From contig NZ_CP015224.1 in assembly GCF_001629735.1 (NCBI RefSeq), positions 1-64,000 on the forward strand: a DNA stretch of 64,000 nt, written 5' to 3'. The notes under the pieces are model-generated. The model worked only from the letters and a program-made list of their open reading frames with translations. It was not told the origin of the DNA and searched no databases. This document shows positions 6,096 through 21,680 of the stretch, piece after piece. The first letter of the stretch is position 1; each line of letters begins with the position of its first letter. The position numbers and the translations under genes are program-made. The DNA is from Lysinibacillus sphaericus. GTDB lineage: Bacteria; Bacillota; Bacilli; Bacillales_A; Planococcaceae.

Positions 6096-6970
6096 TTATG
6101 ATGACTTCCCGTCTTTTGTCCAGTCAGCTACTTTATCTTGATTGTCGTTAATCCATTTCTTGGCTGCTTCCGTAGCACTCATACCTTCCATAATATCAAA
6201 CATCACACTTTCAATATCTTCGGCAGTCCAATAGAAACGATCTAGGACATCATACGCCTCAGATGCATCTTCTTTTAATCCTTTACGAGCGAATGTACCA
6301 ATATATTCTTCTGTACCATATAAACCTTTAGGGTCTTCTAAATATTTTAAATCGTAGGCATTAAAGATCCAGTGGGGTGACCAACCTGTAATAATGATTT
6401 CATCATGGTTTGAAATGGCTTGACTAAGGGCTGCGGTCATGGCACCGGCTGAAGAGGTTAAAACATTCCAACCTTCTAAATTGGGATATTCCTTATAGGC
6501 ATTTTCGGTTGTAGCCATCATATTAGCCCCTGGTTCAATGCCTGTAATTGTTTTATTGGCTTGAGTTGTTAAGTCTTCAATTGAATTAACATCCATATAA
6601 CTTGGAACGACTAAGCCAATTTTAGCACCAGTAAGGTTTTCGCCTAAATTCTCAATTTTATCTTTGTATTTCTCTACTTGAGGAGCATGTGTTTGCGGTA
6701 ACCAGGCAGATACCATACCGTCAACCTCACCGTTCGCAAGTGCCTCCCACATGATGCCATTGTCTAATGGTGTTAGTGTTACATCATATCCTAAATTTTC
6801 TAATACTTGTCCTACCACATGAGTAGAAGCAACCTCTGTATCCCATTCAACATACGCCAAGTTAATTTCTTTTTATCTTTCGTACCAGCATCTGCAGAAC
6901 CACATGCAGCTAATAGTAGTAGGCATGAAAAAACAAATCCTATCTTCCATACTTTTGAATATCTCATCAT
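6096..6970 (-). pseudogene. Glycine betaine/proline ABC transporter substrate-binding lipoprotein (OpuAC-like), frameshifted
   Basis: The start at 6970 gives a lipoprotein signal peptide with lipobox LLAAC, followed by GSADAGTKDKKKLT. About 36 codons in, one T appears to be missing (TTAACTTGGCG where TTAACTTTGGCG would keep frame). The remaining 254 codons read cleanly as an OpuAC domain (TLAYVEWDTEVASTHVV, GWSPHWIF). The total of 875 bases is one short of a multiple of three. Intact relatives bind betaine or choline at the outer face of the membrane and feed an importer. No partner permease or ATPase lies beside it. It may be a true pseudogene or one sequencing error. Confidence 0.8.
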
Positions 6971-7022
6971 ATTCCCCTTTCAATAATTCCTTACCTCTTA
7001 GTGAAAATTAATAAATATCAAT

Positions 7023-7065
7023 AAGTAACAACTTAATTTTATATACAAGTTGTTACTTTTGTCAA
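7023..7065 (-). promoter_or_regulatory. Promoter overlapped by a 12-bp inverted-repeat operator
   Basis: On the minus strand TTGACA (7065-7060) and TATAAA (7043-7038) are separated by 16 bases, upstream of the betaine-binding gene. A perfect inverted repeat (AAGTAACAACTT at 7023-7034, AAGTTGTTACTT at 7047-7058) fills the spacer and the region just after -10, a classical repressor arrangement. A GbsR/OpcR-like regulator is a plausible but unproven binder. Confidence 0.65.
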
Positions 7066-7209
7066 ATAGAGGTTTCCTGTAACTCATGCAATAAAATGAA
7101 GAATGAATCATGGAAAAGGTGCTGAATAAGGGACTAAGAAGCCCATAGATTTTTAACTCGATTACATATGATAGGTGAAAATGGAGACTGGGTTTTGAGG
7201 AGGCTTAGT

Positions 7210-7782
7210 ATGCACTGGATTACTATTATTCTAATAGGGATTGCTGCAAATCTAGACAATTTGGGGATTGGGCTTGCTTATGGTGTCAAGCAAGTTAAAA
7301 TCCCTATTTTATCGAATGCAGTGATCGCTGGCATGTCAATGATTGTCACATATGTCGCTGTAACAGCTGGCAGCACTGTTGTTGAATACATTTCACCGCA
7401 TACTGCCAATTTATTAGGAAGTTTACTATTATGCGTTATAGGCATATGGACCTTGATGTCCAATAACTTTTCTAAACAGCGGATAGCAGGGAACCCTGAG
7501 CTTTTTGATGAAGATAAAAATTTAGTGATCTCAACTCGAGAGGCAATGGCACTCGGTTTTGTATTGTCAGCTAATTGCTTGGCAGGGGGCATTGCCATTG
7601 GAGCAAATGGCATCTCTGCAATATGGACAGTAATTTCCATCGGTGTCTTTTCTTTTGTTACGGTGGGGGTAGGCAGTCAATGTGGGGCGTTGCTCGCCAA
7701 AACGTTTATTGGCAGGCATTCAACAGCTATTTCAGGATGGTTATTATTATTGATTGGTATTTTAGAGATGTTTGCTAAATAA
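7210..7782 (+). CDS. ytaF: YtaF-like sporulation membrane protein (MntP/YtaF superfamily)
   Basis: The 190-residue integral membrane protein has about six hydrophobic helices. The repeated NLDNLGIGLAYG and LSANCLAGGIAIGA segments mark the two halves of the LysE/MntP-like fold and match the YtaF group of Bacillales. YtaF is annotated as sporulation-related, with its substrate unknown. The start is the ATG seven bases after TGAGGAGG; an upstream in-frame ATG lacks a ribosome binding site. It is monocistronic, ending at a terminator. Confidence 0.75.
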   Translation: MHWITIILIGIAANLDNLGIGLAYGVKQVKIPILSNAVIAGMSMIVTYVAVTAGSTVVEYISPHTANLLGSLLLCVIGIWTLMSNNFSKQRIAGNPELFDEDKNLVISTREAMALGFVLSANCLAGGIAIGANGISAIWTVISIGVFSFVTVGVGSQCGALLAKTFIGRHSTAISGWLLLLIGILEMFAK

Positions 7783-7797
7783 AATGATGAGCGAGAG

Positions 7798-7830
7798 TAT
7801 CACCAAATTTTGGTGATATTCTTTTTATTA
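7798..7830 (+). terminator. Terminator after ytaF
   Basis: Arms TATCACCA and TGGTGATA with a short AT loop are followed by TTCTTTTTATT. Confidence 0.75.
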
Positions 7831-7920
7831 GGAGGAAAATTTGACATATTGAGGACGAATTTGGATTAATAGTTGACATTGACTGGCAGTAACGATTATT
7901 CTTGGGAGTAGAATCGTAAT

Positions 7921-7935
7921 TGAGAATTATTTTCG
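7921..7935 (+). promoter_or_regulatory. Candidate Fur box upstream of the heme locus
   Basis: TGAGAATTATTTTCG matches 11 of the 14 defined positions of the Bacillus 7-1-7 Fur motif TGATAATnATTATCA. It lies 64 bases before the first NEAT gene, where iron repression would be expected. Confidence 0.5.
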
Positions 7936-7998
7936 TTTACATGGAAGTGAATCTATCAATTAGGATGTTTTATTATGACTAAGGGAGGCGTGCAACAC

Positions 7999-8616
7999 AT
8001 GAAGAAAATGCTCATGTTGATCATGCTTGTTAGTATTTTTTTCGTTAACTTCGGGTTAACGCAAGCATCTGCTCAGCTGGCTGATGGCACTCATTCGATA
8101 AAATATCAGGTCAATAAACCTGAAAGTAATTCCGCATCCATTGCTAATGATTATTTTGTAAAACCGGCTAAAGTGACGGTGAAGAATGGCACTGCTGTAG
8201 TACAAATTACATTAAAAAACAGTGCATGGATTACGAAATTTCAACCACCAGGTGGAGCAACTGTAGTGAGTGAAGATCAAGCAACAGATACACGAACGGT
8301 ACAATTCACTGTTAAAGACCTAACAAAACCTGTAGTAACAGCGATGAAAATTGATATTGATGATATCAATTATCATCATGAATACAGTGTATCACTTGTA
8401 TTTGATGCCACATCAATTGCAAATACAGCGACTGCTTCTACTCAACAGACAGAATCCAGTAAATCTCAACCTACTTCTTCAGCAACTACAACTGGAAGTC
8501 AAGTGCCCAATCCACAAACAGATGATGCAACACCTTATCTATTAATCGTTGCGTTAGTGGGGTCAGCATTTTTACTTTATAGAAAAAAACTACAAACAAA
8601 AACGGAGGGTCAATAA
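7999..8616 (+). CDS. isdC: IsdC-like NEAT-domain heme-binding surface protein with sortase B signal
   Basis: The 205-residue precursor has a signal peptide ending near ASA (residue 25), one NEAT domain (about 28-137), a Ser/Thr/Gln-rich linker and a C-terminal sorting signal: NPQTD (171-175), hydrophobic helix, then YRKK. The NEAT domain has the SAWI loop and the heme-ligand motif YHHEY (125-129), where the first Tyr ligates heme iron in IsdA/IsdC-type domains. NPQTD fits the class B sortase pattern, and a class B sortase closes this locus. It should be fixed to peptidoglycan and relay heme inward to IsdE. GGGAGG 11 bases upstream supports this ATG rather than the one eight codons earlier. 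Confidence 0.9.
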   Translation: MKKMLMLIMLVSIFFVNFGLTQASAQLADGTHSIKYQVNKPESNSASIANDYFVKPAKVTVKNGTAVVQITLKNSAWITKFQPPGGATVVSEDQATDTRTVQFTVKDLTKPVVTAMKIDIDDINYHHEYSVSLVFDATSIANTATASTQQTESSKSQPTSSATTTGSQVPNPQTDDATPYLLIVALVGSAFLLYRKKLQTKTEGQ

Positions 8617-8617
8617 A

Positions 8618-10042
8618 ATGGCTAAAAAACGTCAATCACGTGCAACTAAAATAGTACTAGCTTCATTGTTAGCAGCATCTCTTACAGTTCCTTCCTTTGC
8701 ATCTGCGGCAGAATTAGTAACAACAAATACAGAAGTGAAGGCAGAAACAACGAAAGCTGCTAAAACGGATTCAGTTATTAATTTCCAAATTTTTAAAACA
8801 GGTACAACAGAAGCACAGCCTGCAATTAGTTCTCATTTAGTACCACAAGGAACAATCGTTGAAAAAGACGGTAAATTTGAAGCTCAATTAACAATCACTG
8901 CTAAATCTGCACCAATGATTGCAGGTCTACAAACAAAACAAGGCGATACATTTTTAGATGCTAAAGAAGTAAAAAATAACGACGGTACTATTACATACAG
9001 TTTCCCTGTGGTTGTTGATGAAGTTAAATCAGCAAAAATCCATGTAGTTGTTCCTTCCGCAAATATGGATAAATGGTATGATTTTGATCTAAAAGCAGTG
9101 AAAGAAGTAAAAGAAGAAGTGAAAGTGAATGAAGTTGCTGTCACTGTTTACAAAGATGGTACAACAGAAGAGTCGATGATGAAACAATATATCGCACCAA
9201 AAGTAGGAGTTACTGTAAAAGACGGTAAAAATGTTGTGACAATGACATTCCCTCAAGGTCAATATGTAAAAGGTTTCACTGTAGAGGGGAAAGAAGCAAC
9301 TTTAGTGAAACAAGACGATGCAACAAATTCACGCACATATTCATTTGAAGTTAAAGATTTGAAGAAACTGGTAAGTGCTCAATTACACATCGTTGTAAAT
9401 GAACCAGCCCAAGGTGTGAAGTATGATTCGAATCATACAGTACAATTTAGCTTTGCTGTGGAAGGTGCAGTGAAACCAGTTATCAATCCATTTAAGGACA
9501 TTAGTAAAGATGCGAATAAAGATGCCATCCTATCACTTTACAGCTTAGGAATTGTGAAGGCACAAGACAATTTTAGACCAAATGACAACATTACACGTTC
9601 TCAATTTGCTTTAATGGTGGCACGTTCATTGAACGTATCTTCTACAAAAGATGCTGGATTTAAAGATACAGGTAAGCTTAGTGCGGAAGCTGTTCAAGCT
9701 ATTAATGCATTAGCTGAAGCAGGCATTGTTAAAAAAGCGACAAACTTCAATCCAAATGATACACTTACTCGTCAACAAGCAGCTGTCATGATCTATCGCA
9801 CAATAACACATGTAGCAGGAAAAGAAATGAGCTTTGGTGACACAGGTCTTTCTTACTATGCTGATGGAGCAAAAGTGAAAGACGAAGAAGCAAAAAAAGC
9901 CTTTGCACTTCTATATGCAGGTAAAGTAATGACTGGTTCTCCAACTGCTGATGGCAAAACAGTTATTGATGCCAACAGTCCATTAAAACGTTCACATATG
10001 GCGAAAATTTTAAATGGCTCATTGCAATACATGAATAAATAA
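8618..10042 (+). CDS. Two-NEAT-domain S-layer-homology surface protein (BslK-like)
   Basis: The 474-residue secreted protein has a signal peptide (1-30), two NEAT-like domains (about 52-162 and 172-283) and S-layer homology repeats (about 289-474), including FKDISKDANKDAI and NFRPNDNITRSQFALM. The SLH part should hold it non-covalently on secondary cell-wall polymer. The usual YxxxY heme motif is altered in both NEAT domains: M150-D-K-W-Y154 in the first, Y269-D-S-N-H273 in the second. The gene starts one base after the IsdC-like stop codon, with GGAGGG upstream, so the two are co-transcribed. It probably captures heme at the outermost layer; ligand use needs testing. Confidence 0.88.
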   Translation: MAKKRQSRATKIVLASLLAASLTVPSFASAAELVTTNTEVKAETTKAAKTDSVINFQIFKTGTTEAQPAISSHLVPQGTIVEKDGKFEAQLTITAKSAPMIAGLQTKQGDTFLDAKEVKNNDGTITYSFPVVVDEVKSAKIHVVVPSANMDKWYDFDLKAVKEVKEEVKVNEVAVTVYKDGTTEESMMKQYIAPKVGVTVKDGKNVVTMTFPQGQYVKGFTVEGKEATLVKQDDATNSRTYSFEVKDLKKLVSAQLHIVVNEPAQGVKYDSNHTVQFSFAVEGAVKPVINPFKDISKDANKDAILSLYSLGIVKAQDNFRPNDNITRSQFALMVARSLNVSSTKDAGFKDTGKLSAEAVQAINALAEAGIVKKATNFNPNDTLTRQQAAVMIYRTITHVAGKEMSFGDTGLSYYADGAKVKDEEAKKAFALLYAGKVMTGSPTADGKTVIDANSPLKRSHMAKILNGSLQYMNK

Positions 10043-10125
10043 TAAGGATTTTTACAGCAACTTCCTTTCTCATATTTTATGGGGAAGGAAGTTCCTATGT
10101 GTTTAAAATGGGAGGAGACCATGCA

Positions 10126-11397
10126 ATGACAATCATAAAAAAGCACATTTGTATTTCGGCTGTTTTGGCAGTTTTATTGCTTGTTTTCCCTCCATCCATT
10201 CTTATGCAAGCAAAAGCTGAGAACCTTGGCATAATAGATGGTAGTTATCAAGTTGAACTAAGTTTTTCTCCTATTGAAGGGTTTGAAGGAAATCTTTTTA
10301 AACATAAAGCAACTCTCACCGTAAAGGATGGTCAGTATCAATTAACTTTGGCACTTGAACAATCATATTCTGTACGCGACATACATATCGAACAGCTTGG
10401 CAATGAAATTTCTTTGACTCAAGATATAGAAAATTTAGTTCAGTTTGATGTTTTGGCATTACAAGACCCGATTGTTATAAAGGGCAATGTGGAGCTTGCA
10501 GCTGAAGAATCTTATTTTTCGTTCACTCAAGAGCTGCGAATAGAGATAGCGGGACTTACTCCGAATGTTCCTCAGGAAAAAAACAAAACGGATGAAGCTG
10601 AAAACTTAGTTGTAGAAGAAACAAAAGGCCAAGAATGGGCAGTGGACTATGTATTATTAGCGGATGGTAAAAATGAACCTTCTATTTTGAATAACTATGT
10701 GAAGCCAATCGCAAAGGTTATTGAAAAGGGTGGTAGATACTATGCGCAAATGACTATTTTACAATCAGCTTGGGTGACAGGTCTACAGATAGATGATAAG
10801 GGAAATCAGATTGAACCAAAGCAAGTTTCTCTTTTAGATAATGTACGCATGGTGGAATTTGAGGTTGAGGACTTAACACAGCCGTTAAGAATGTGGGTAA
10901 AGATTGATATTCCTGACATTTCTTATCATCATCAATATTATGTTCAGCTAGTATTCAATCAAAAGCAGGTTTCATTGCTTTTACAAAAACCCACGAACGA
11001 AAAACCTACTACGCAAGTCGTACGTGACAAGTCGGTGGAAACGGAGCAACAGGAGCAGGTACAAAAGCCACCAATACAAATAAGTAAAGAGAATGTTTCT
11101 AGCAATGCCACACAGACATTACCAGCTATTCAAACACCCTTGCTTAGACCAAAGGAAGAAAAATTAACATTTGATCGTACACTTGATGAACCAACTGATG
11201 AAGCTTTAGAAGAAGCATTAGAGGACAGCAAAACAAATGAGGAAACTACGGAAACAAAAGTAGTAAAAAAATCGACTGCAGATCAGCAAATGGAGCCGTT
11301 AAACTTCGTAAAAATTATTGGGCTAATCGTTATTTGTCTGGTATCAGGATGGTTACTGATTAAGCGTATTAGGAAAACCAAAAATTTAGCTGACTGA
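10126..11397 (+). CDS. Membrane-anchored protein with two NEAT-like domains
   Basis: The 423-residue protein has a signal peptide ending near QAKA, a divergent NEAT-like domain (about 30-155), a canonical NEAT domain (about 172-282) with SAWV loop and heme motif Y267-H-H-Q-Y271, a long Glu/Thr/Gln-rich linker and a C-terminal transmembrane helix followed by KRIRKTK. The first domain lacks YxxxY (YFSFT at that place) and may bind something other than heme or serve structurally. There is no NPxTx or LPxTG signal, so membrane retention is predicted. The ATG preceded by GGGAGGA at 10110-10116 is chosen; a nearby ATG at 10121 is out of frame. Third gene of the heme operon. Confidence 0.85.
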   Translation: MTIIKKHICISAVLAVLLLVFPPSILMQAKAENLGIIDGSYQVELSFSPIEGFEGNLFKHKATLTVKDGQYQLTLALEQSYSVRDIHIEQLGNEISLTQDIENLVQFDVLALQDPIVIKGNVELAAEESYFSFTQELRIEIAGLTPNVPQEKNKTDEAENLVVEETKGQEWAVDYVLLADGKNEPSILNNYVKPIAKVIEKGGRYYAQMTILQSAWVTGLQIDDKGNQIEPKQVSLLDNVRMVEFEVEDLTQPLRMWVKIDIPDISYHHQYYVQLVFNQKQVSLLLQKPTNEKPTTQVVRDKSVETEQQEQVQKPPIQISKENVSSNATQTLPAIQTPLLRPKEEKLTFDRTLDEPTDEALEEALEDSKTNEETTETKVVKKSTADQQMEPLNFVKIIGLIVICLVSGWLLIKRIRKTKNLAD

Positions 11398-11422
11398 GCA
11401 GAAATAAGTGGGGGATGACACA

Positions 11423-12328
11423 ATGAAAAAAGATTGGAAAATGAAGGTACTGTTGCTGACATTACTATCACTAATTCTTGCTGCATGTAGTAGCAGCGAT
11501 CAAACAGAAAAAAAAGAGACAGTTACTGATAAAGAACAGGTAACAGAAGATAGTGAGCAACGTATTATTGCTGGGACTGTAGTGGTAGCGGATATCCTTG
11601 ATAAGCTGGAGCTTGATGCAATCGCTGTACCTGAAACAGAAAAGCAATTAGCAAAGCGTTTTGATGGTCTGCCAACAATCGGTAATGCGATGGAGCCAGA
11701 TATGGAAATTGTTAAGTCATTAAATCCAACAGAAGTATTATCCGTTTCCACTTTAGAATACGATTTACAGGATAAATTTAAACAACTTAATATTCCTGTT
11801 GATTTTCTTAATTTCCAAAGCGTTGATGCCATGCTAAAGGAGATAACATCTCTAGGAAAACGCTATGATCGTGAAGCTCAAGCCGATGCATTAGTAAAAG
11901 ATCTACAGAAGAATATCGAGGCAGTCCAAAGCGTAGCTGCGAATAAAGAAGGTCCTCGCGTATTAATTTTACTAGGTATACCAGGGAGTTATCTAGTAGC
12001 AACAGAAAATTCCTATGCCGGGGATCTTGTCAAACGAGCAGGGGGTATCAATGTAATGGAAGGGCAAGATGCAGAATATCTATCTTCTAATACGGAATAT
12101 CTTCATAATAGCAATCCGGATATTATTTTGCGCTTATCACATGGCATGCCCGATGAGGTTGTGGAAATGTTTGATGAAGAATTTAAAACTAATGATATTT
12201 GGAAACATTTCGATGCAGTGAAAAACGGTAAAGTCTATGATTTAGAGGAAGAATTATTCGGGACGACATCCTCCTTGCAGGTACCACAGGCTTTAGGACA
12301 GCTGATGGAAATTTTCTATCGTAAATAG
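11423..12328 (+). CDS. isdE: Heme ABC transporter substrate-binding lipoprotein IsdE
   Basis: The 301-residue protein has a lipoprotein signal with lipobox LAAC and a class III (BtuF/FepB-like) binding fold: IIAGTVVVADILDKL at the N-terminal lobe, a central helix around residues 150-170, and GGINVMEGQD in the second lobe. It should receive heme from the NEAT proteins and pass it to IsdF. Translation starts at the ATG eight bases after GGGGG; a GTG five codons upstream is less likely. A hairpin terminator lies between this gene and isdF, unusual for a transporter operon. Confidence 0.87.
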   Translation: MKKDWKMKVLLLTLLSLILAACSSSDQTEKKETVTDKEQVTEDSEQRIIAGTVVVADILDKLELDAIAVPETEKQLAKRFDGLPTIGNAMEPDMEIVKSLNPTEVLSVSTLEYDLQDKFKQLNIPVDFLNFQSVDAMLKEITSLGKRYDREAQADALVKDLQKNIEAVQSVAANKEGPRVLILLGIPGSYLVATENSYAGDLVKRAGGINVMEGQDAEYLSSNTEYLHNSNPDIILRLSHGMPDEVVEMFDEEFKTNDIWKHFDAVKNGKVYDLEEELFGTTSSLQVPQALGQLMEIFYRK

Positions 12329-12340
12329 TAACTCGAATGT

Positions 12341-12383
12341 CGCTCGTATGATCAGTATTTTTACTCGTCATAGAGCGTTTTTC
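12341..12383 (+). terminator. Terminator or attenuator between isdE and isdF
   Basis: CGCTC and TATGA pair with TCATA and GAGCG, giving a ten-pair stem with one bulged base, followed by TTTTTCTT. It could keep the surface proteins and lipoprotein at higher levels than the permease, ATPase and sortase. Confidence 0.6.
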
Positions 12384-12423
12384 TTATCCTATATGGAATA
12401 AAAAAAGAAAAAGGAAGTCCGAT

Positions 12424-13389
12424 ATGACAAAAAGAATCGTCAGTTTTTTACTTGTAATTTTTTTATTACTGGTGACAGTGATTTATTCAGCATCAACAGG
12501 TAGCATTAAAATGGGCTTTTTTGAGTTTATAGGGGCATTATTTAATGAGGGGAATAGTCAAATGGAGGCTATTCGTGATTTACGCTTCCCACGTATCATT
12601 GTGGCATTATTTGCAGGTGCCGCCCTTTCAGTTTCTGGGGTGCTTTTACAATCGGTGATGCGTAACCCATTGGCAGATGCAGGGATTATCGGAATATCTT
12701 CGGGTGCAGCATTTGTCCAATTGTTTATTGTTGCCTTTTTCCCCACATTATTTTTTATGACACCCGTGTTAGCATTTATGGGTGGAGCCTTAGCCTGTAC
12801 GCTTGTCTTTGCATTATCTTGGAAATCTGGCTTAAGCCCGCTCAAATTGATTTTAGTAGGGATAGCGATTAACGCTATGTTTACAGGCTTAACCGAGGCT
12901 ATGATTAGCTTAGGCGGCTCCTTAAATATGTCCGCATCCAGTGTTATTGGTTCTAATCTAACCATGCGAACATGGAAAGATGTTTCAACAATTGTGACAT
13001 ATGGTTCAATCGGATTAATAGGTTCTCTTGCTTTATATAGTTGGTGTAATTTACTCGTATTACAAGACAAAACTGTTAAAAGCTTAGGATTTCAAGTTGT
13101 GCGAGCACGGTTATTAATTGCAGCAGTGGCTGTCTTACTAGCAGCTGTTTCAGTTGTTGTTGCAGGAGTTATTTCATTTGTGGGTCTTTTAGTACCTCAT
13201 ATTGCTCGCAGATTAGTTGGCCATGATCATGCTGTGCTTATTCCGTTTACAGCATTGGCAGGAGCATTACTAATTTTATTAGCAGATACAATTGGACGTA
13301 CAATTGTTGCACCACTTGAAATCCCGGCGTCCACCATTATGGCCATTATCGGTGGACCCTTCCTAATATTCTTATTACGAAAAGAGTGA
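12424..13389 (+). CDS. isdF: Heme ABC transporter permease IsdF (FecCD family)
   Basis: The 321-residue polytopic membrane protein is of the BtuC/FecCD family. Family landmarks are RFPRIIVALFAGAALSVSG, QSVMRNPLADAGIIG, and near the C-terminus FVGLLVPHIARRLVGHDH, the coupling-helix region that docks the ATPase. It should form the membrane channel with IsdE and the ATPase encoded next. The ATG follows AAGGAAG. Its stop overlaps or abuts the start of the ATPase gene, indicating translational coupling. Confidence 0.88.
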   Translation: MTKRIVSFLLVIFLLLVTVIYSASTGSIKMGFFEFIGALFNEGNSQMEAIRDLRFPRIIVALFAGAALSVSGVLLQSVMRNPLADAGIIGISSGAAFVQLFIVAFFPTLFFMTPVLAFMGGALACTLVFALSWKSGLSPLKLILVGIAINAMFTGLTEAMISLGGSLNMSASSVIGSNLTMRTWKDVSTIVTYGSIGLIGSLALYSWCNLLVLQDKTVKSLGFQVVRARLLIAAVAVLLAAVSVVVAGVISFVGLLVPHIARRLVGHDHAVLIPFTALAGALLILLADTIGRTIVAPLEIPASTIMAIIGGPFLIFLLRKE

Positions 13390-13394
13390 CAAGC

Positions 13395-14165
13395 ATGAAT
13401 ATACAAGACATTATTGTATCGCATGATAATACACGTAATCATTTAAAGGGTGTTTCCACATCAATTACAAAAGGCAAAATTACAACAATAATTGGTCCGA
13501 ACGGCTGTGGGAAATCAACTTTATTAAGTGTCATCTCTCGTCTGCATTCACCTAAATCAGGAAATGTCCTGTTAGAAAATAAAGACTTACTAGATTATAA
13601 GCCTAAGGAATTTGCTAAAAAACTAGCCATAGTATATCAGCAAAACGATATACCGAAAGATTTAACAATTGAAAAATTAGTCGGTTTTGGTCGTCTTCCC
13701 CACCAAACATTGCTGAAAAAGGACAATGAGGGAGATGAAAAAGCCATTGAATGGGCACTGGCTTGTACAAATTTACAACAAAAGAGTTCAACAAATTTAG
13801 AGGCGTTATCAGGTGGGGAGCGGCAACGTGTCTGGATTGCTATGGCTTTGGCACAACAATCAGAAATACTATGCTTGGACGAGCCGACAACATATTTGGA
13901 TATTTATTATCAGCTAGAATTATTAGAGCTTGTCAAAACATTAAACGAGCAGCACGGCTTAACGATTATCATGGTGCTACACGATATTAATCAAGCTATT
14001 CGCTATAGTAACCATATTATTTTAATGAAGGATGGTAAAATATTTGCAGAAGGTACCCCACGTGATGTAATTACGAAAGATGTTATTAAAGAGGTATATG
14101 GGGTTAACGCGGTATTTAATGAAGATCAACAACTTGGCTATTATATGATGCCAATGGGGATATGA
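13395..14165 (+). CDS. Heme/iron ABC transporter ATP-binding protein (FecE family)
   Basis: The 256-residue cytosolic ATPase has Walker A GPNGCGKST, Q-loop in AIVYQQNDIP, signature LSGGERQR, Walker B EILCLDEPTTYLD and H-loop MVLHDINQA. It powers heme import through IsdF. The ATG at 13395 gives the usual family N-terminus; a GTG at 13386 overlapping the isdF stop by four bases is an equal alternative. The following sortase gene begins within or just after the end of this one. Confidence 0.87.
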   Translation: MNIQDIIVSHDNTRNHLKGVSTSITKGKITTIIGPNGCGKSTLLSVISRLHSPKSGNVLLENKDLLDYKPKEFAKKLAIVYQQNDIPKDLTIEKLVGFGRLPHQTLLKKDNEGDEKAIEWALACTNLQQKSSTNLEALSGGERQRVWIAMALAQQSEILCLDEPTTYLDIYYQLELLELVKTLNEQHGLTIIMVLHDINQAIRYSNHIILMKDGKIFAEGTPRDVITKDVIKEVYGVNAVFNEDQQLGYYMMPMGI

Positions 14166-14176
14166 ATGGTGATGGG

Positions 14177-14950
14177 ATGAAAAAGAAGGCGTCAAAGTTT
14201 GTCACATTTCTATATGTAGCAATATTTTTATTTTCTGCATTTTCCCTTGCAAAGTATCTATATACGTACTATGAGACATCAAAATCGCTGAAGGAAGTGC
14301 AGGATATATATCAAGCTACATTAAGCACTATTGAAGATCAGCCTGTAAATCAAGAGGAAGAAACTCAAGCTCCTTCAACGATAAGACCTCAATTCCAAGA
14401 TTTATTAGCAATGAACCGTCAAATTGTAGGATGGATTTCAGTGGATGGAACAAAGTTAAATAATCCAGTACTACAAGCTGACAATAATGATTTTTATTTA
14501 AATCATAATTTTAGAGACGAGGAAAGTCGTGCAGGCAGTGTCTTTATGGATTATCGAAATAATATTGTTTCTATGAGTCAAAATACAGTTTTATATGGTC
14601 ATGCTATGAAAAACAATACGATGTTTGGCAGTCTAAAAAATTACTTAAAGCAAGACTACGCGAATGACCATCCCATTATTTATTTAGATACCTTATATGA
14701 AGGGTATGATATCGAGGTATTTGCAGCATATGAGACAACTATTGATTTCTACTATATTGAAACGGATTTTACAAGTGACGGAGCTTATAAGCAATTTCTA
14801 GAGGAAATTCAAAAGCGATCATCCATACAAATGGATGTCGCTATAAGTCCCGGTGATAAAATCCTGACATTGTCTACCTGTAAGGATTCAGTGATGAGTG
14901 ACGAGCACCGCTTTGTTGTTCAGGGTAAATTAGTAAAACGTGGTGAATAA
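14177..14950 (+). CDS. srtB: Class B sortase
   Basis: The 257-residue protein has an N-terminal membrane anchor (about 7-28), a Glu-rich linker and a sortase B catalytic domain. Catalytic residues are visible: His in LYGHAMKNN, Cys in LSTCKDS and Arg in EHRFVVQG. Class B sortases cleave NPxTx signals, and the IsdC-like protein at the head of the locus has NPQTD, so that protein is the natural substrate. The start may also be the in-frame ATG 15 bases earlier, which overlaps the ATPase stop. A strong terminator follows, ending the locus. Confidence 0.9.
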   Translation: MKKKASKFVTFLYVAIFLFSAFSLAKYLYTYYETSKSLKEVQDIYQATLSTIEDQPVNQEEETQAPSTIRPQFQDLLAMNRQIVGWISVDGTKLNNPVLQADNNDFYLNHNFRDEESRAGSVFMDYRNNIVSMSQNTVLYGHAMKNNTMFGSLKNYLKQDYANDHPIIYLDTLYEGYDIEVFAAYETTIDFYYIETDFTSDGAYKQFLEEIQKRSSIQMDVAISPGDKILTLSTCKDSVMSDEHRFVVQGKLVKRGE

Positions 14951-14976
14951 ATAGAGCTTGACTTTCTTTTTATTGA

Positions 14977-15011
14977 GGAGAACCTTCACTGTCAAGGTTC
15001 TCCATCTTTTT
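14977..15011 (+). terminator. Terminator at the end of the heme locus
   Basis: A perfect 10-bp stem (GGAGAACCTT / AAGGTTCTCC) with a 7-base loop is followed by CTTTTT. Confidence 0.85.
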
Positions 15012-15019
15012 AGCCTTTT

Positions 15020-15457
15020 TTATTGGATTTTCTCCGCCAACTCTAAAATAATGCCCTCAGGACCACGCACGTAACATAATTTATAACTTTCTTCATATTG
15101 CTGTATCTCACTAAAAATTTTTGTACCCCTTTTTTTCAATTTAGCAATAATACCTTCAATATTTTCAACATTAAAGCAAATATGTCGGATTCCAAGCGTA
15201 TTTGCAAAAGTTGGCTGTATACCTTTTTCATCAGAAGGCGAGTAAAATTTCACTAGCTCTATCCATGTCTGACCATCAGGCATCCCCAATCCTACACATG
15301 CCGTTTTTGTATAATTAAGCCCTACAATTCGGCTCAGCAGTTCTCCTTGTAATTCCCATTCTGCTTTCACTTCAAGCCCTAGCTCAAGAAAAAATGCTTT
15401 AGCCTCTGAAAGATCATTCACGTTTATGCTCACATGATCCATTCTATTGATTTTCAT
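15020..15457 (-). CDS. VOC-family (glyoxalase/dioxygenase superfamily) protein
   Basis: The 145-residue protein covers one vicinal-oxygen-chelate module pair. Candidate metal ligands are spaced as in the family: DHVSI near the N-terminus, WIELVKF in the middle, RHICFNV, and IILELAE at the end. Possible roles include methylmalonyl-CoA epimerase-like, glyoxalase or ring-cleavage chemistry; I cannot choose. It is divergent from yceI, whose promoter region carries redox-type operators, so a part in electrophile or quinone stress is possible but not shown. Confidence 0.72.
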   Translation of the reverse strand: MKINRMDHVSINVNDLSEAKAFFLELGLEVKAEWELQGELLSRIVGLNYTKTACVGLGMPDGQTWIELVKFYSPSDEKGIQPTFANTLGIRHICFNVENIEGIIAKLKKRGTKIFSEIQQYEESYKLCYVRGPEGIILELAEKIQ

Positions 15458-15666
15458 ACCTCATACCTCCAAGTCCTCTTCGCAGAATTATATAACAAAT
15501 GGATGAAAAAAAATCCTGATACGATCATGAATTTTGATAGACAAAGGATGATACATAAAAACTCTTTAACGTTATGCTTTATTTATGGCTAATGTGGACA
15601 AACCTATGCTTGTTCGAAATCGTAAATTGAATATTTCAAATTTCAAAAAGAACTTTTAACAAAAAA

Positions 15667-15695
15667 TAATTAAATTACTTGACGTAATTTAATTA
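15667..15695 (+). promoter_or_regulatory. Palindromic operator 1 upstream of yceI
   Basis: A perfect 12-bp inverted repeat (TAATTAAATTAC / GTAATTTAATTA) with a 5-base spacer contains TTAC-N5-GTAA. The same core recurs at 15711-15723 and upstream of the DoxX gene at 46268-46280. Confidence 0.6.
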
Positions 15696-15710
15696 TTAAT
15701 ATATAGTAAG

Positions 15711-15733
15711 TTACATAAAGTAATCAATTACTT
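15711..15733 (+). promoter_or_regulatory. Palindromic operator 2 upstream of yceI
   Basis: A second TTAC-N5-GTAA (15711-15723) overlaps the palindrome AAGTAAT-CA-ATTACTT (15718-15733). The arrangement suggests repeated dimer binding by one regulator, probably of the HxlR/DUF24 or MarR type. Confidence 0.55.
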
Positions 15734-15878
15734 TTCATAACCAAAGTAGTACAAAAAGATAAGTAACTACAAATGTTTAGCCTAATCAATGTTGGGTAAC
15801 ATAATTCATGTAGTTGCTTCATATTTTAAAATATATCTCGAAATCGAGATAAAATCAACTTATTGGAGGAATTTTAAA

Positions 15879-16406
15879 ATGGCAAAATGGAATATTGATT
15901 TAGGGCACTCAGCAATTAACTTTCAAGTAAAACACATGATGGTATCAAAAGTGAAAGGTGTATTTGATAAATACACAGCGGACATTGAGGCGGCAGATCT
16001 TGCAGACTTAACAACTGCTAACATTAGCTTTACTATTGATCCAGCAAGTATTAATACACGTAGTGAAGATCGTGATAACCATTTAAAAGCAGCGGATTTT
16101 TTTGATGCTGAACAATATCCAACAATTACGTTTAAATCAACAGACATTACTAAAAAATCTAGCGATGAATATTCAGTAACAGGAGACTTAACTATTAGAG
16201 GTGTAACAAAATCAGTAACATTTGATACAGAATTTAATGGCAAGGGTACTAATCCTTGGGGGCAAGAAGTATATGGTTTTGAAGCTGAAACAACTATCAA
16301 TCGCGAAGACTTTGGTTTAACTTGGAATGCAGCCTTAGAAACTGGTGGAGTACTAGTAGGTAAAGATATTAAAGTATCAGTTGAGTTAGAAATTAACCCA
16401 GCTTAA
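15879..16406 (+). CDS. yceI: YceI-family lipid-binding-type protein
   Basis: The 175-residue protein is a full YceI lipocalin-like domain, starting KWNIDLGHSAINFQVKHMMV and ending VSVELEINPA. There is no signal peptide, so it is cytosolic, as in other Firmicutes. The family binds polyisoprenoid or amphiphilic ligands; its physiological role is poorly defined. Translation starts at the ATG eight bases after GGAGGA. The promoter carries two palindromic operators shared in type with the DoxX/HxlR pair at 46 kb, suggesting induction by reactive electrophiles. Monocistronic with its own terminator. Confidence 0.85.
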   Translation: MAKWNIDLGHSAINFQVKHMMVSKVKGVFDKYTADIEAADLADLTTANISFTIDPASINTRSEDRDNHLKAADFFDAEQYPTITFKSTDITKKSSDEYSVTGDLTIRGVTKSVTFDTEFNGKGTNPWGQEVYGFEAETTINREDFGLTWNAALETGGVLVGKDIKVSVELEINPA

Positions 16407-16421
16407 TAAAGAGATTTTCCT

Positions 16422-16454
16422 GCATGCTTGAAGGTATATTCAAGCATGCTTTTT
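16422..16454 (+). terminator. Terminator after yceI
   Basis: A perfect 11-bp stem (GCATGCTTGAA / TTCAAGCATGC) is followed by TTTTTAT. Confidence 0.85.
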
Positions 16455-16592
16455 ATATGTCCAAAAAAAGGTATGTACTTAAGAAATATTCTAGTAATGA
16501 TATTTTGTAAATTAATTCCATCGAGTATGTTTTTTGCATATTTTTAGCAAATTCTGCATATAAATCATCATATTGTTTTTGGGGGCGATAGG

Positions 16593-17519
16593 ATGAATGT
16601 ATTAGTGACAGGTGGCTATGGTTTTATTGGCAGTGCAGTAGGTAGGCGTTTTTTTGAAGAAGGTGCATCTGTTTATATTATTGATAATTTAAGTACAGGT
16701 CACTTACGGAATGTTGATTTTGAGCATAAATCTTATCTTTTAAATGTGGAGGATGAGGTTTGTGAGCACCTTTTTAAAGAGACACATTTCGATGTGGTCA
16801 TTCATTGTGCAGCACAAACGAGTGTTCAACAATCCTTACAGGAGCCAGTAAAGGATATTTTGACGAATATTGTTGGGCTAAGTCAAATGCTCTTTTTATC
16901 ATCTAAATATAAGGTAAAGCATTTTGTTTTTGCCTCCTCAGCGGCTGTGTATGGAAATAGTCACTATCCGCCACTAGAAGAAACAGATGTGTGCGAACCT
17001 ATATCAATGTATGGGCTAAACAAGAGCATAGGGGAAACCTATTGTGAAAAATGGCAAAAGGATTATCGGTTACCTATCCTTATTTACAGATTCGCCAATG
17101 TTTTCGGTCCAAGACAACAAATGCAAGGTGAAGCTGCTGTCATCCCAAGTATGTTAAAGAGTAGCATGGAGGGAAGACCCTTTACAATTTATGGTGATGG
17201 TGAACAGACACGTGACTTTATTTACGTCGATGATATTGCAGATGCCATTTATGCCGGTGTCCATTCAAGATTACAAGGTATCTATAATGTGTCCACAAAT
17301 GAAGCGTGGTCTCTTCATCAAGTGATTTTGTTGCTTCAGCATTTAAATCATCCACTTGAAATTCAATATGCACCCGCAAGAGAAGGAGATATTGAACATT
17401 CATTTTTAAATAATGACAAATTAGCCAATGCAATTGGTTGGAGACCCAAAATTTCTTTTGCAGAGGGAATTGAACGTACGTTGAATGCTTTACAAGTTGA
17501 TAAATTGGCGGAAATTTAA
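16593..17519 (+). CDS. NAD-dependent nucleotide-sugar epimerase/dehydratase (GalE-like extended SDR)
   Basis: The 308-residue extended short-chain dehydrogenase has the NAD-binding GGYGFIGSAV at the N-terminus, a catalytic serine region FASSAAVYG and YGLNK (YxxxK). The sequence YRFANVFGPRQ and the later GDGEQTRDFIYVDD are typical of UDP-glucose/UDP-GlcNAc 4-epimerases. Likely substrate is a nucleotide sugar for surface polysaccharide, but the exact sugar is not decidable. It stands alone, without glycosyltransferases, and ends at its own terminator. Confidence 0.8.
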   Translation: MNVLVTGGYGFIGSAVGRRFFEEGASVYIIDNLSTGHLRNVDFEHKSYLLNVEDEVCEHLFKETHFDVVIHCAAQTSVQQSLQEPVKDILTNIVGLSQMLFLSSKYKVKHFVFASSAAVYGNSHYPPLEETDVCEPISMYGLNKSIGETYCEKWQKDYRLPILIYRFANVFGPRQQMQGEAAVIPSMLKSSMEGRPFTIYGDGEQTRDFIYVDDIADAIYAGVHSRLQGIYNVSTNEAWSLHQVILLLQHLNHPLEIQYAPAREGDIEHSFLNNDKLANAIGWRPKISFAEGIERTLNALQVDKLAEI

Positions 17520-17534
17520 CTATATAGAGGATTC

Positions 17535-17566
17535 GGCATATTACACAGTGTAATATGTCTTTTTCT
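17535..17566 (+). terminator. Terminator after the epimerase gene
   Basis: The inverted repeat CATATTAC / GTAATATG with a short loop is followed by TCTTTTTC. The same interval carries TATAAT at 17577-17582, a likely -10 for the downstream pair. Confidence 0.7.
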
Positions 17567-17620
17567 ATGTCTATAGTATAATAATTCATTAAAGAAATGG
17601 ATGTGGACGGAGGCTTACAT

Positions 17621-18901
17621 ATGCTTGTAGATTTTAGAGTGAACAATTGTCTAAGCTATAAAGAGGATACATTATTTTCAATGGTAGCAGGAAGTCGTCT
17701 ACGAAAATGGAAGGATACCCATACCATACCGTTGGATGATTCACTTCGTGTCGTGAAAAGTGCATTTATTTTTGGGCCGAATGGAAGTGGTAAATCCAAT
17801 CTATTTACCGCGCTTAAAGTTTTGAGAACCTTACTCTTTAACTTTGAGAATCTGAACAATGTTAAACAATTACGCCTGCCTTATCAACCTTTCAAGCTAG
17901 GAAGTCAGCAGGGCCAACCAACAGAATTTATGATTTCACTATTTTTGGACGGTGCTTTGTATGAGTATGAAATTCAGTACAATGCTTCCATCATTCTATA
18001 TGAGCGTCTTCACAAGACAACTCATAATTTGAAGGAAGAGCTTTTTGTCCGACGATGGGATGGTGTGGATTATTCGTATGAAACAGCTCATTCGACTGCA
18101 CAGGAATTAACAAAATATACGCGGAATAATACAGCCTTTATATCAGTGCTACATGTTTTTAATGATTCAGACGCGTTAAAGGTATTCGATTGGTTTTTAC
18201 ATAAAATGCTGTTTCTAGATGAAGCGAATCGGTTATCAAGTCATCCTCTAATTCGTAAACTTGAAGAGGAGCCCTTTAAAAAAGAGGTCATCAAACTTCT
18301 TAAAATTGCCGATTTTTCAATTCAAGATGTCACGGCAAGACGTGTGGAGCGCAGAGAAAAAAATACCATTGGCTACGAATTTGACAGCCCTGAGGTCATT
18401 CAAGAAGTTGATATTGACCTACATTATTTATCATTTGATGAATCGGGTGTGCCCATCGGAAACGAGACGATCAATTGGACGATGGATTCTAAAGGTACAG
18501 TGCGCATGTTGCATTTAGCTTGTGTGATGGTAGATGCTTATAATAAAGGAAAAACTATTTTTATTGATGAATTCGATACAGCTTTTCATGTATCAATTTG
18601 CGAATTTCTAATGGCAATCATGAATAGTAAACGTAATACGAGTAATCAATTTGTCGTGACGAGTCATGAAATAGAGTTATTGGATCAGCCATTGCGTTCT
18701 GATCAAATTTGGTTTGTTAATAAAACCTTTAAAAATGAATCTGAGCTCTATTCTTTATTTGATTTTGCAGACTTGCAAAAAAAGCGTGGCGACCTTTCTT
18801 ATGCAAAACGTTATTTAAAAGGAGAATTTGGCGCAACGCCCGTTATTAATGAATATTTATCTGAACAATATTTAGAAGAAGCGGAGGTATCTGAGCAGTG
18901 A
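17621..18901 (+). CDS. AAA-family ATPase of the RloA/AbiLi type
   Basis: The 426-residue ATPase has an OLD/ABC-like head: N-terminal strand FRVNNCLSY, Walker A GPNGSGKS (52-59), Walker B TIFIDEFDTAF (about 309-319), a following switch ending VVTSHEIELLD, and the C-terminal KRYLKGEFGATPVI typical of RloA/AAA_15 proteins. GGAGG seven bases upstream fixes the start. It overlaps the next gene by four bases (GTGA). ATPases of this group pair with RloB in anti-phage systems; AbiL of lactococci has the same composition. A defence role is inference from family and pairing. Confidence 0.82.
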   Translation: MLVDFRVNNCLSYKEDTLFSMVAGSRLRKWKDTHTIPLDDSLRVVKSAFIFGPNGSGKSNLFTALKVLRTLLFNFENLNNVKQLRLPYQPFKLGSQQGQPTEFMISLFLDGALYEYEIQYNASIILYERLHKTTHNLKEELFVRRWDGVDYSYETAHSTAQELTKYTRNNTAFISVLHVFNDSDALKVFDWFLHKMLFLDEANRLSSHPLIRKLEEEPFKKEVIKLLKIADFSIQDVTARRVERREKNTIGYEFDSPEVIQEVDIDLHYLSFDESGVPIGNETINWTMDSKGTVRMLHLACVMVDAYNKGKTIFIDEFDTAFHVSICEFLMAIMNSKRNTSNQFVVTSHEIELLDQPLRSDQIWFVNKTFKNESELYSLFDFADLQKKRGDLSYAKRYLKGEFGATPVINEYLSEQYLEEAEVSEQ

Positions 18902-19613: not shown

Positions 19614-21680
19614 GTGGATAAGCCAAATTCGAATCAACGCAAAAATATAGAGGAAAATGCCAAGGATCAGCAACTAGAGCCATTTCGTGTAGAGAACGAA
19701 GGCACAAAAATGACTACGAATCAGGGTCTTAGAGTGTCAAACGATGAGGATTCCTTAAAAGCAGGAGTCCGTGGTCCGACAATTATGGAGGATTTTCATC
19801 TTCGAGAAAAAATTACACATTTTGACCACGAACGAATTCCGGAACGTGTCGTGCATGCTAGAGGTTTTGCTGCACATGGTGAATTCGAATTGTATGAGTC
19901 GATGAGAGAGTATACGAAGGCGAAATTTTTGCAAGACCCGAAAAAGAAAACGCCAGTGTTTGTCAGGTTTTCGACAGTGGTAGGTAGTTTAGGTTCAATG
20001 GATACGGCTCGTGATGTACGGGGATTTGCAACTAAATTTTACACGGATGAAGGAAATTATGATTTAGTAGGCAATAATATTCCAGTCTTTTTTATTCAGG
20101 ATGCCATTAAGTTCCCAGATTTAATTCATGCAGTAAAGCCTGAGCCGCATAATGAGATGCCACAAGCTGCCTCTGCCCATGATACGTTTTGGGATTTTGT
20201 GGCGAACAATCAGGAGATTGCACATATGATTATGTGGCATATGTCAGATCGAACAATACCTAGAAGCTTCCGTATGATGGAGGGTTTCGGGGTGCATACA
20301 TTCCGTTTTGTTAATGATAGAGGAAGATCAAGATTTGTGAAGTTTCATTGGAAGCCTGTACTAGGTGTGCATTCACTAGTTTGGGATGAAGCTCAGATAA
20401 TAGCTGGGAAGGACACAGATTTTCAGCGACGGGATTTATGGGAGGCCATTGAAATTGGAGATTATCCAGAGTTTGAGTTAGGGGTGCAAATACTTGAGCC
20501 AGAAGACGAATTTAAATTCGATTTCGATATTTTAGATGCCACAAAACTTTGGCCAGAAGAACTGATACCCGTAAAAATAATTGGAAAAATGACCTTAAAT
20601 CGCAATGTGGATAATGTATTTGCTGAAACTGAGCAAGTTGCCTTCCATCCAGGAAATGTTGTACCAGGCATTGACTTTACCAATGATCCACTATTACAAG
20701 GTCGACTCTTCTCCTATTTAGATACACAGTTAATACGTTTAGGGGGTCCAAACTTTACAGAAATCCCTATAAATCGCCCTCTTTGTCCTGTGCATAATAA
20801 TCAACGTAATGGTTTTAGTCGACAGGCAATTAATCTAGGAAGAGTAAGCTATCATAAAAATTCATTAGCCAATAATACACCTGCAACATCCACTGCAAGG
20901 GAGGGAGGATATGTTCATTATGAAGAAAAGGTTGAAGGGCGAATCACAAGGGCACGTAGTAAATCCTTTGACGATCACTTTTCACAAGCTAGACTCTTTT
21001 GGAACAGTATGTCCCCTCCTGAAAAACAGCACATTATAGATGCTTTTAGCTTTGAGGTTGGAAAAGTCAAGAGTAAATCTGTGCGACAACAAGTTGTAGA
21101 TATGTTTGTTCACGTAGATAAAGCAATGGCTACAACTGTTGCTGAAAATGTGGGTGTTAACCCTCCTAGTGGCGAACAGTCCAAGGTAACAGCCTCTTCA
21201 CCCGCACTTAGTCAAGCCAATACCATTAAATTACCTTATACACTTAGGGTAGGTGTTTTAATTGGTGATGGATTCGATGCGAATGAGGTAGGGGAGGTAT
21301 TAAAATATTTAACAAGGCAGGGGGTGCGCTACAGCATTATTTCTGATCGACTAGGAGTTGTGACTGGAAATAATGGTGTTCAATTAACAGCAAGCGACAC
21401 CTTTATTACAACCGATGCCGTATTATTTGACTCGTTATATGTGGTGGGTGTAAAGGCAAGTAATCAAGCTAAATTTAATACACATATCGTAAATTACATT
21501 AATGAGGCATATCGTCATTACAAACCGATTGGATTTGCCGTTACAGGTACAACGTTTTTCAATATGTCGAATGCCAATGTAGGGCCAGGTATTGTTTTAG
21601 CAACTGGGAATAAGGATTTTTCTAAAAAATTTGTAGACGCCATTGCACAACAAAGATTTTGGCAACGGAATATTTATTAA
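19614..21680 (+). CDS. katE: Large-subunit (clade II) catalase
   Basis: The 688-residue catalase has a C-terminal flavodoxin/DJ-1-like domain (about 545-688), the mark of HPII-type enzymes. Active-site residues are present: His in [12 protein letters not shown], Asn in [11 protein letters not shown], and heme-ligand Tyr in RLFSYLDTQ. It decomposes hydrogen peroxide in the cytosol and is often spore- or stress-associated in Bacillales. The GTG with AAAGGGG five bases upstream gives the usual N-terminus; in-frame TTG (19578) and ATG (19599) lie upstream without good ribosome binding sites. It is independently terminated. Confidence 0.92.

Follow-up and report, generated by a model that had tools for sequence, protein, structure and literature searches.

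The isd locus of Bacillus anthracis (isdC-isdX1-isdX2-isdE1-isdE2-isdF-srtB-isdG) combines an IsdC protein anchored by sortase B (SrtB) with an IsdE/IsdF importer and Fur control, and involves the secreted proteins IsdX1 and IsdX2 as well as isdG. A putative ATPase is also encoded in this locus (PMC10147376), and wall, membrane and S-layer NEAT proteins (BslK, BasJ) are found in the one organism (PMC2515342). The Isd system of Staphylococcus aureus is built from the same IsdC, IsdE, IsdF and SrtB families, with IsdA, IsdB and IsdH anchored by sortase A (PMC5467902), no S-layer (PMC2515342), and an isd operon without an ATPase that uses FhuC (PMC10147376).

We analyzed a stretch of 64000 nucleotides (hereafter, the window) at the start of the single 4692801-base contig (NZ_CP015224.1) of Lysinibacillus sphaericus 2362 and confirmed an Isd-type operon with three anchor modes at positions 7921-15003. 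L. sphaericus is a mosquito-killing soil bacterium, and from the sequence we consider it quite probable that this locus is its Fur-controlled, single-unit Isd-type operon for the import of heme (porphyrin), in which an SLH protein is outermost and non-canonical. The unit resembles that of B. anthracis in IsdC and its SrtB anchoring, the IsdE/IsdF importer, the ATPase and, probably, Fur control, and resembles the S. aureus system in the four shared families. However, the B. anthracis isd genes listed in the available part of PMC2515342 include no SLH or membrane NEAT protein, whereas the L. sphaericus unit holds all three anchors and lacks isdG. With SLH, wall and membrane NEAT proteins in one unit, the heme path through an SLH-coated envelope becomes testable in a single operon.

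That this genome (CP015224) has an Isd system is already on record, since its isd genes have been listed (PMC5467902); the accessible text of that paper does not single out an SLH or membrane NEAT protein and does not describe the operon layout, the Fur-like site at 7921 or the hairpin reported below. No paper on NEAT domains with Lysinibacillus or Sporosarcina was found in the open-licence literature. The main additions made here are the non-canonical outer NEAT domains, relatives that naturally lack the sortase step, and a conserved hairpin within the operon.

Gene content, anchoring signals and copy number

Seven genes, all on the + strand, extend from 7975 to 14950, with the following features in and around them.

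7793-7823, +, terminator-like hairpin behind an upstream mntP-like gene
7873-7902, +, promoter-like site TTGACA-18-TATTCT (10/12, consensus match only)
7921-7935, +, Fur-box-like site TGAGAATTATTTTCG (11/14 positions of TGATAATNATTATCA)
7975-8616, +, isdC: one NEAT domain (SIANDY/YHHEY), NPQTD sorting signal, membrane segment and basic tail
8618-10042, +, putatively SLH-anchored two-NEAT protein of 474 amino acids (aa): NEAT1 at about 54-160, NEAT2 at about 173-279, three C-terminal SLH repeats
10056-10096, +, intercistronic hairpin (core 10059-10093), position conserved and covarying
10099-11397, +, membrane-anchored two-NEAT protein of 432 aa: weak NEAT1, NEAT2 with SILNNY/YHHQY, C-terminal membrane segment
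11408-12328, +, isdE, heme-binding lipoprotein of the importer (profile matches)
12424-13389, +, isdF-type FecCD permease (Pfam, 279.9 bits)
13386-14165, +, importer ATPase (Pfam ABC ATPase match)
14162-14950, +, srtB, class B sortase (TIGR03064; aligns with B. anthracis 1RZ2)
14977-15003, +, terminator-like hairpin GGAGAACCTTCACTGTCAAGGTTCTCC followed by ATCTTTTTAG

The IsdC equivalog TIGR03656, the IsdE model TIGR03659 and the SrtB model TIGR03064 were matched at 177.3, 420.7 and 262.5 bits, respectively (cut-offs 155.85, 298.65 and 153.75). Pfam profiles detected one NEAT domain in the first protein and two each in the second and third, together with two SLH repeats in the second; the third SLH repeat is degenerate and was found by a profile of our own at a loose threshold. 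Among the curated family profiles, no IsdF-specific model matched the permease and related permease models all stayed below their cut-offs; for the ATPase, related models were likewise below cut-off among the matches listed (best 25 of 193). Chance gene content was rejected, since the family scores are far above the cut-offs and the layout is conserved.

The translation start of isdC is more likely the ATG at 7999, which has the Shine-Dalgarno sequence AAGGGAGGCG, and that of the membrane NEAT gene is more likely the ATG at 10126 after GGGAGGAG. The seven genes presumably form one transcript. Promoter-like sites were not commoner here than in shuffled sequence, and terminator-like sites numbered 13 per 10 kb where 5.5 were expected.

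A first-pass annotation of this DNA had proposed that one unit encodes a sortase-B-anchored NEAT protein, an SLH two-NEAT protein, a membrane two-NEAT protein, a complete heme importer and its own sortase. The profile matches bear this out for the gene content, the importer and the sortase, and the three anchoring modes are borne out by a sorting signal, SLH repeats and a membrane segment. The C-terminus of IsdC is NPQTDDATPYLLIVALVGSAFLLYRKKLQTKTEGQ, a class B sorting signal (NPQTD) with a membrane segment, by which IsdC would be fixed in the wall by the SrtB of the locus. The best matches of this SrtB among solved structures were 1RZ2 (named BA4783 there) and the sortase B 2OQW, and the stretches aligning with 1RZ2 hold the His, Cys and Arg that we take to be the catalytic residues of class B sortases. 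No sorting motif is present in the 432-aa protein, whose C-terminus consists of a membrane segment and a basic tail. For the 474-aa protein, SLH anchoring is plausible from its repeats and would be available in this organism, because the genome encodes CsaB (305.6 bits, cut-off 213.1) and has 74 SLH matches, two of them from a redundant contig end. SLH domains bind wall polymer, so that 'S-layer' here means the wall surface and is not proof of a position in the S-layer; the SLH protein would be outermost on pyruvylated wall polymer.

The isd locus is single copy. NEAT and sortase searches showed a second match set near 4.66 Mb, where the contig end from about 4653142 to 4692801 matches window positions 1-40761 up to the last base as two aligned segments, 99.8% and 98.5% identical. 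The differences are mostly single-base indels (5 mismatches and 281 gap openings); about 43 differences, nearly all indels, fall in the first 20 kb, they are dense around window positions 29.4-29.9 kb and again at 35.3-36.4 kb, and the end copy lacks 832 bases that correspond to window 20265-21096. The stretch 6870-18193, including the whole operon, is identical in both contig ends. A real second operon copy was therefore rejected, as the 4.66-Mb match most likely reflects an untrimmed circular overlap of about 40 kb. The recorded genome size also looks inflated by this overlap.

Heme-binding residues and heme degradation

IsdE above the cut-off was found in 98 of 261 genomes of the family, including 23 of the 32 genomes of the genus. 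We compared 61 loci, comprising the window and 60 others: 22 same-type loci of the genus, 8 second IsdE matches of the genus above the cut-off, and 30 loci from other genera, one each from 30 of 75 matching genomes. Heme-binding NEAT domains follow a rule of S....Y in the 3-10 helix together with YxxxY on strand 8, where the first tyrosine binds iron and the second supports its binding (PMC4143258). Both elements were present in 23/23 genus loci in IsdC (SIANDY with YHHEY) and in NEAT2 of the membrane protein. With this usual tyrosine pair, the two domains would carry heme and pass it to IsdE and on to the permease with its dedicated ATPase. The first NEAT domain of the membrane protein had neither S....Y nor YxxxY in any of the 23 loci; its match of 25.1 bits is below the Pfam cut-off of 32.8 and recurs in 23/23, and the 'two-NEAT' label of this protein rests on that weak recurring match.

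The SLH protein is different in both of its domains. In the window, NEAT1 has MDKWY and NEAT2 has YDSNH at the signature, neither of which is YxxxY. NEAT1, scored by itself, passes the Pfam cut-off (42.3 bits), has no S....Y helix in any of the 23 genus loci, and reads MDKWY in 18, MDTWY in 3, HDVWY in 1 and KDTWY in 1, with Met at the ligand position in 21/23. NEAT2 combines S....Y with YxxxH in all 23. When aligned with solved NEAT domains, the His and Met of the SLH protein fell on the two tyrosine positions. Across 25 aligned rows Y269, D270 and H273 were invariant and W153 and Y154 were kept in 24, with Met150 in 22 (column conservation average, rank 43 of 107) and a His ending the 3-10 helix of NEAT1 in 18; a second Met, in the 3-10 helix, is absent from NEAT1 of the window. 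A profile search detected no NEAT match outside the operon in the window genome. Since the SLH NEAT domains are non-YxxxY and the genome gave no further NEAT match, the outermost relay step is without a canonical carrier. The first-pass annotation had suggested a relay from S-layer through wall to membrane; its wall and membrane steps agree with the canonical residues of IsdC and the membrane NEAT2, but its start at the SLH protein does not agree with the residues found there.

By its residues, the SLH protein does not qualify as a carrier like BslK. BslK, an SLH-NEAT protein of B. anthracis, is said to deliver heme to IsdC, as reportedly found by Tarlovsky in 2010. A full relay of this kind, with the SLH NEAT domains acting as ordinary heme carriers that supply IsdC, appears doubtful here: the S....Y helix and ligand-position tyrosine of NEAT2 are kept in 23/23 loci and a Phe as the second residue does not prevent heme binding by Hal of B. 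anthracis, but BslK itself has both tyrosines, NEAT1 lacks the ligand tyrosine in 23/23, and YxxxH is shared with IsdX2 NEAT2, a domain that does not bind heme (PMC4143258). His as the second signature residue was reported for 31 of 343 NEAT domains (PMC4143258).

The same IsdX2 domain was reported to contact hemoglobin (PMC4143258), and the two SLH signatures, though degenerate, are conserved to the degree given above, which would suit a docking protein for a heme protein that never holds heme itself. However, the hemoglobin-receptor motif (F/Y)YH(Y/F) was found in none of the 158 NEAT-bearing open reading frames across the 61 loci, window included, so that a receptor of the IsdB/IsdH type was rejected, and recent work doubts hemoglobin binding without this motif (PMC7815599); docking of another kind is a tentative possibility. 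A third account, which we consider unlikely, is that the SLH protein holds heme without tyrosine pairs, NEAT1 via Met (with the 3-10 helix His) and NEAT2 via a Tyr/His pair, amounting to a Met-/His-assisted NEAT relay outside streptococci whose dose would be tuned by the conserved hairpin separating surface and importer genes. In sum, docking of a heme protein, an unusual mode of heme binding and a different ligand altogether are all conceivable for the SLH protein; that it captures or presents heme, or a protein carrying heme, through non-canonical contacts seems more likely than ordinary YxxxY carriage.

No heme oxygenase gene was found within the operon. The expectation of the first-pass annotation that heme degradation is encoded elsewhere held in a genome search, which gave five ABM-family matches, including two IsdG-type proteins above the curated cut-off (166.6 and 159.9 bits versus 119) that would open the heme ring. 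One is a lone gene at 3.716 Mb, preceded at a distance of 49 bases by a Fur-like site (11/14). For the other, at 1.674 Mb, a search of 300 bases gave no comparable site (best 9/14); this gene lies directly behind a LolD/FtsX-type ABC exporter pair (L015 1411-3189), whose FtsX-type permease half had no NCBIfam model match. A third ABM protein matched only HmuQ, below cut-off, and is presumably HmoB-like. The HrtAB heme exporter has been reported for L. sphaericus (PMC5467902), and the place of the exporter pair beside the 1.674-Mb gene would suit it.

The ligand of the system could also be another porphyrin, given that NEAT proteins of soil bacteria have been proposed to serve in chlorophyll uptake (PMC7815599). 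That the locus imports chlorophyll degradation products or a porphyrin other than heme from decaying matter is nevertheless highly unlikely with IsdE and IsdC in heme equivalogs, two IsdG-type heme oxygenases in the genome and Fur-box-like control.

Layouts among relatives and the hairpin after the SLH gene

Three anchors together with SrtB were found in 26 of the 61 loci (the 23 genus loci, L084, L109 and L110), and this layout is normal for the genus, being present in 23/23 of its genomes with IsdE above the cut-off. Another 13 loci (L093, L095-L099, L101-L107), hereafter Sporosarcina-type, encode the SLH and membrane proteins with an IsdC that lacks NPxT and with no SrtB; no SrtB was detected in the 13 whole genomes, and two of the loci are from Sporosarcina (L096/L136 and L106/L142). 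In these 13 loci, the later NEAT domains of the SLH protein have HTGNY, HTGHY or YTGNH at the heme signature. Absence of the sortase motif and SrtB with the SLH protein kept is new here and provides a natural experiment on which anchor matters. One of these loci (L134/L098) comes from a record titled Arthrobacter beigongshangensis REN13; the name looks wrong, as this appears to be a genome of the window family (G166).

Eight second-type loci of the genus (L072, L073, L075-L077, L079, L081, L082) encode a giant SLH-NEAT protein of 980-1339 aa, which gave four to six NEAT matches and has YxxxY domains; an IsdG match lies nearby. The others comprised 6 loci without the membrane protein, 5 with sortase-anchored many-NEAT proteins and no SLH, and 3 with none of these anchors, one of which (L091) has a single short NEAT open reading frame. 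Among named genomes (30 of the best 80 of 111 matches, L113-L142, searched on the + strand), SLH-protein homologues of at least 260 bits were found in 22 loci, in Lysinibacillus and Sporosarcina, with SrtB in 22/22.

The nine genus genomes without IsdE above the cut-off gave no NEAT match with the same profile that matches in the window genome. Clear broken srtB fragments were seen in G028 and one weak fragment in G057, neither with a NEAT match, and in G038 a broken isdE match and the class B sortase lie on different contigs. It looks as if the isd locus was lost as a whole.

Directly 3' of the SLH gene stop codon lies a hairpin of 16-18 pairs. A fold z-score (z) below -3, from shuffles that preserve base composition only, was obtained after the SLH gene in 26/26 three-anchor loci (median -5.7) and in 0/26 after each of isdC, the membrane NEAT gene, isdF and the ATPase gene, with 8/26 after isdE and 11/26 after srtB, the unit end. 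We aligned 29 loci (the 26 plus L083, L085 and L086; 27 distinct), with the structure drawn on one of the aligned rows. In this alignment 94.8% of cells pair and 8 pairs are changed on both sides; covarying cells numbered 23 versus 4.7 in shuffles, none of 500 shuffles was as high, and the signal was lost on sliding the partner. The Sporosarcina-type loci have a form of other sequence (GCCGGCGTCAC stem) at the same place in 12/13, with L102, which has no stem, left out; covariation there was slight (2 cells, 7/500 shuffles).

The hairpin was traced beyond these loci. An ungapped scan, which misses the bulged Sporosarcina form, scored at least 25 in 31 of 53 SLH junctions and 30 of 610 random windows, and folding of SLH junctions gave z of -2.8 or lower in 44/45, with L102 as the exception; the strongest stem in L088 and L111 was 57-58 bases further on. 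Where no SLH protein is encoded, a strong fold follows the last surface NEAT gene in 4/5 loci (z -5.2, -3.6, -3.4 and -2.7; -1.1 in L100). The second-type loci, with the giant SLH gene behind the importer genes, had the hairpin in 0/8 by the ungapped scan. From its placement in SLH, non-SLH and second-type loci, the rule seems to be that the hairpin parts surface genes from importer genes. The hairpin had no Rfam match, and a literature search found no report of an isd hairpin (no mention of 'stem-loop'); the covarying intercistronic hairpin after the SLH-NEAT gene is new here.

The hairpin probably keeps the output of surface proteins high relative to that of importer and sortase. It offers a concrete, testable explanation of how the surface genes and the importer genes could be read as one transcript and still be expressed in different amounts. 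Both a leaky terminator and a protector of the 3' end after cleavage fit: the window stem lacks a proper T run, a run of four T is present in several relatives, and the Sporosarcina form has none. A dispersed repeat as its source was rejected, since the exact pattern (the only one searched) is nowhere else in the genome. It is distinctly improbable that the hairpin arose by chance or from a dispersed repeat, or that it acts as an ordinary full terminator while the downstream genes have their own promoter. Although the four T after the stem in several genus loci and a weak promoter-like site at 10051-10078 (9/12), which overlaps the window hairpin and is of a kind as common in shuffles, would agree with such an origin, the exact sequence recurs in the genome only at the redundant contig end, the place is conserved with a sequence that differs between genera and covaries, and the Sporosarcina form lacks a T run.

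Probable iron control and comparison with known systems

Iron control of the operon would probably act via a degenerate Fur-like site conserved in position. The site TGAGAATTATTTTCG was matched as well by 19 of 300 single-base shuffles and is weak alone. With its middle base varying, it was the best match in 20/23 genus loci (11-12 of 14 positions); L074 had 10 of 14, and the site was not found in L062 and L071, giving 21/23 in all. The eight second-type loci all have perfect Fur boxes (14/14) and the 13 loci without SrtB have matches of 11-13 of 14, and only 9-10 positions matched in L083, L084, L088, L108, L111 and L112, all from other genera. Three of nine published Fur boxes were checked and found at the same coordinates (1030906, 4354641 and 422084), the one at 422084 differing from the printed table in its central base.

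Like the chlorophyll proposals, several observations weigh against a Fur-controlled Isd-type heme import operon with a dedicated sortase. The Fur site of the window has three mismatches, and the published Fur list for L. sphaericus 2362 does not include the site at 7921 (PMC5467902). The published screen allowed up to two mismatches (PMC5467902) and would miss this site. In the second-type loci, NPxT occurs without SrtB in the locus, SrtB being encoded in the first-type locus of the same genomes. G038 has a class B sortase just over the cut-off (160.9 bits) and no NEAT match, and is thus an exception to the joint occurrence of SrtB and NEAT genes. The joint loss of NPxT and SrtB was not significant across 4 independent pairs, 3 going the same way and one showing no difference (sign test p 0.25), on a quick IsdE tree with few independent events.

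Like the SLH protein of this operon, BslK of B. anthracis and IlsA of B. cereus combine NEAT and SLH on one secreted protein; BslK has one heme-binding NEAT domain with YxxxY and IlsA adds leucine-rich repeats (PMC4143258, PMC2777315). The SLH protein of L. sphaericus, in contrast, has two NEAT domains, none with YxxxY, and its gene lies inside the isd operon. In having Met at the NEAT heme-ligand position, its NEAT1 alone resembles Shr and Shp of Streptococcus pyogenes, of which Shr is membrane-tethered. The Shr NEAT domains have two Met ligands (PMC12796733), whereas NEAT1 here has a single Met, a candidate ligand, at the tyrosine position. The B. anthracis locus consists of three putative units with a Fur box each, compared with the presumed one unit of L. 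sphaericus. A three-anchor NEAT set is not singular, as it is in print for B. anthracis, though spread there beyond the isd locus.

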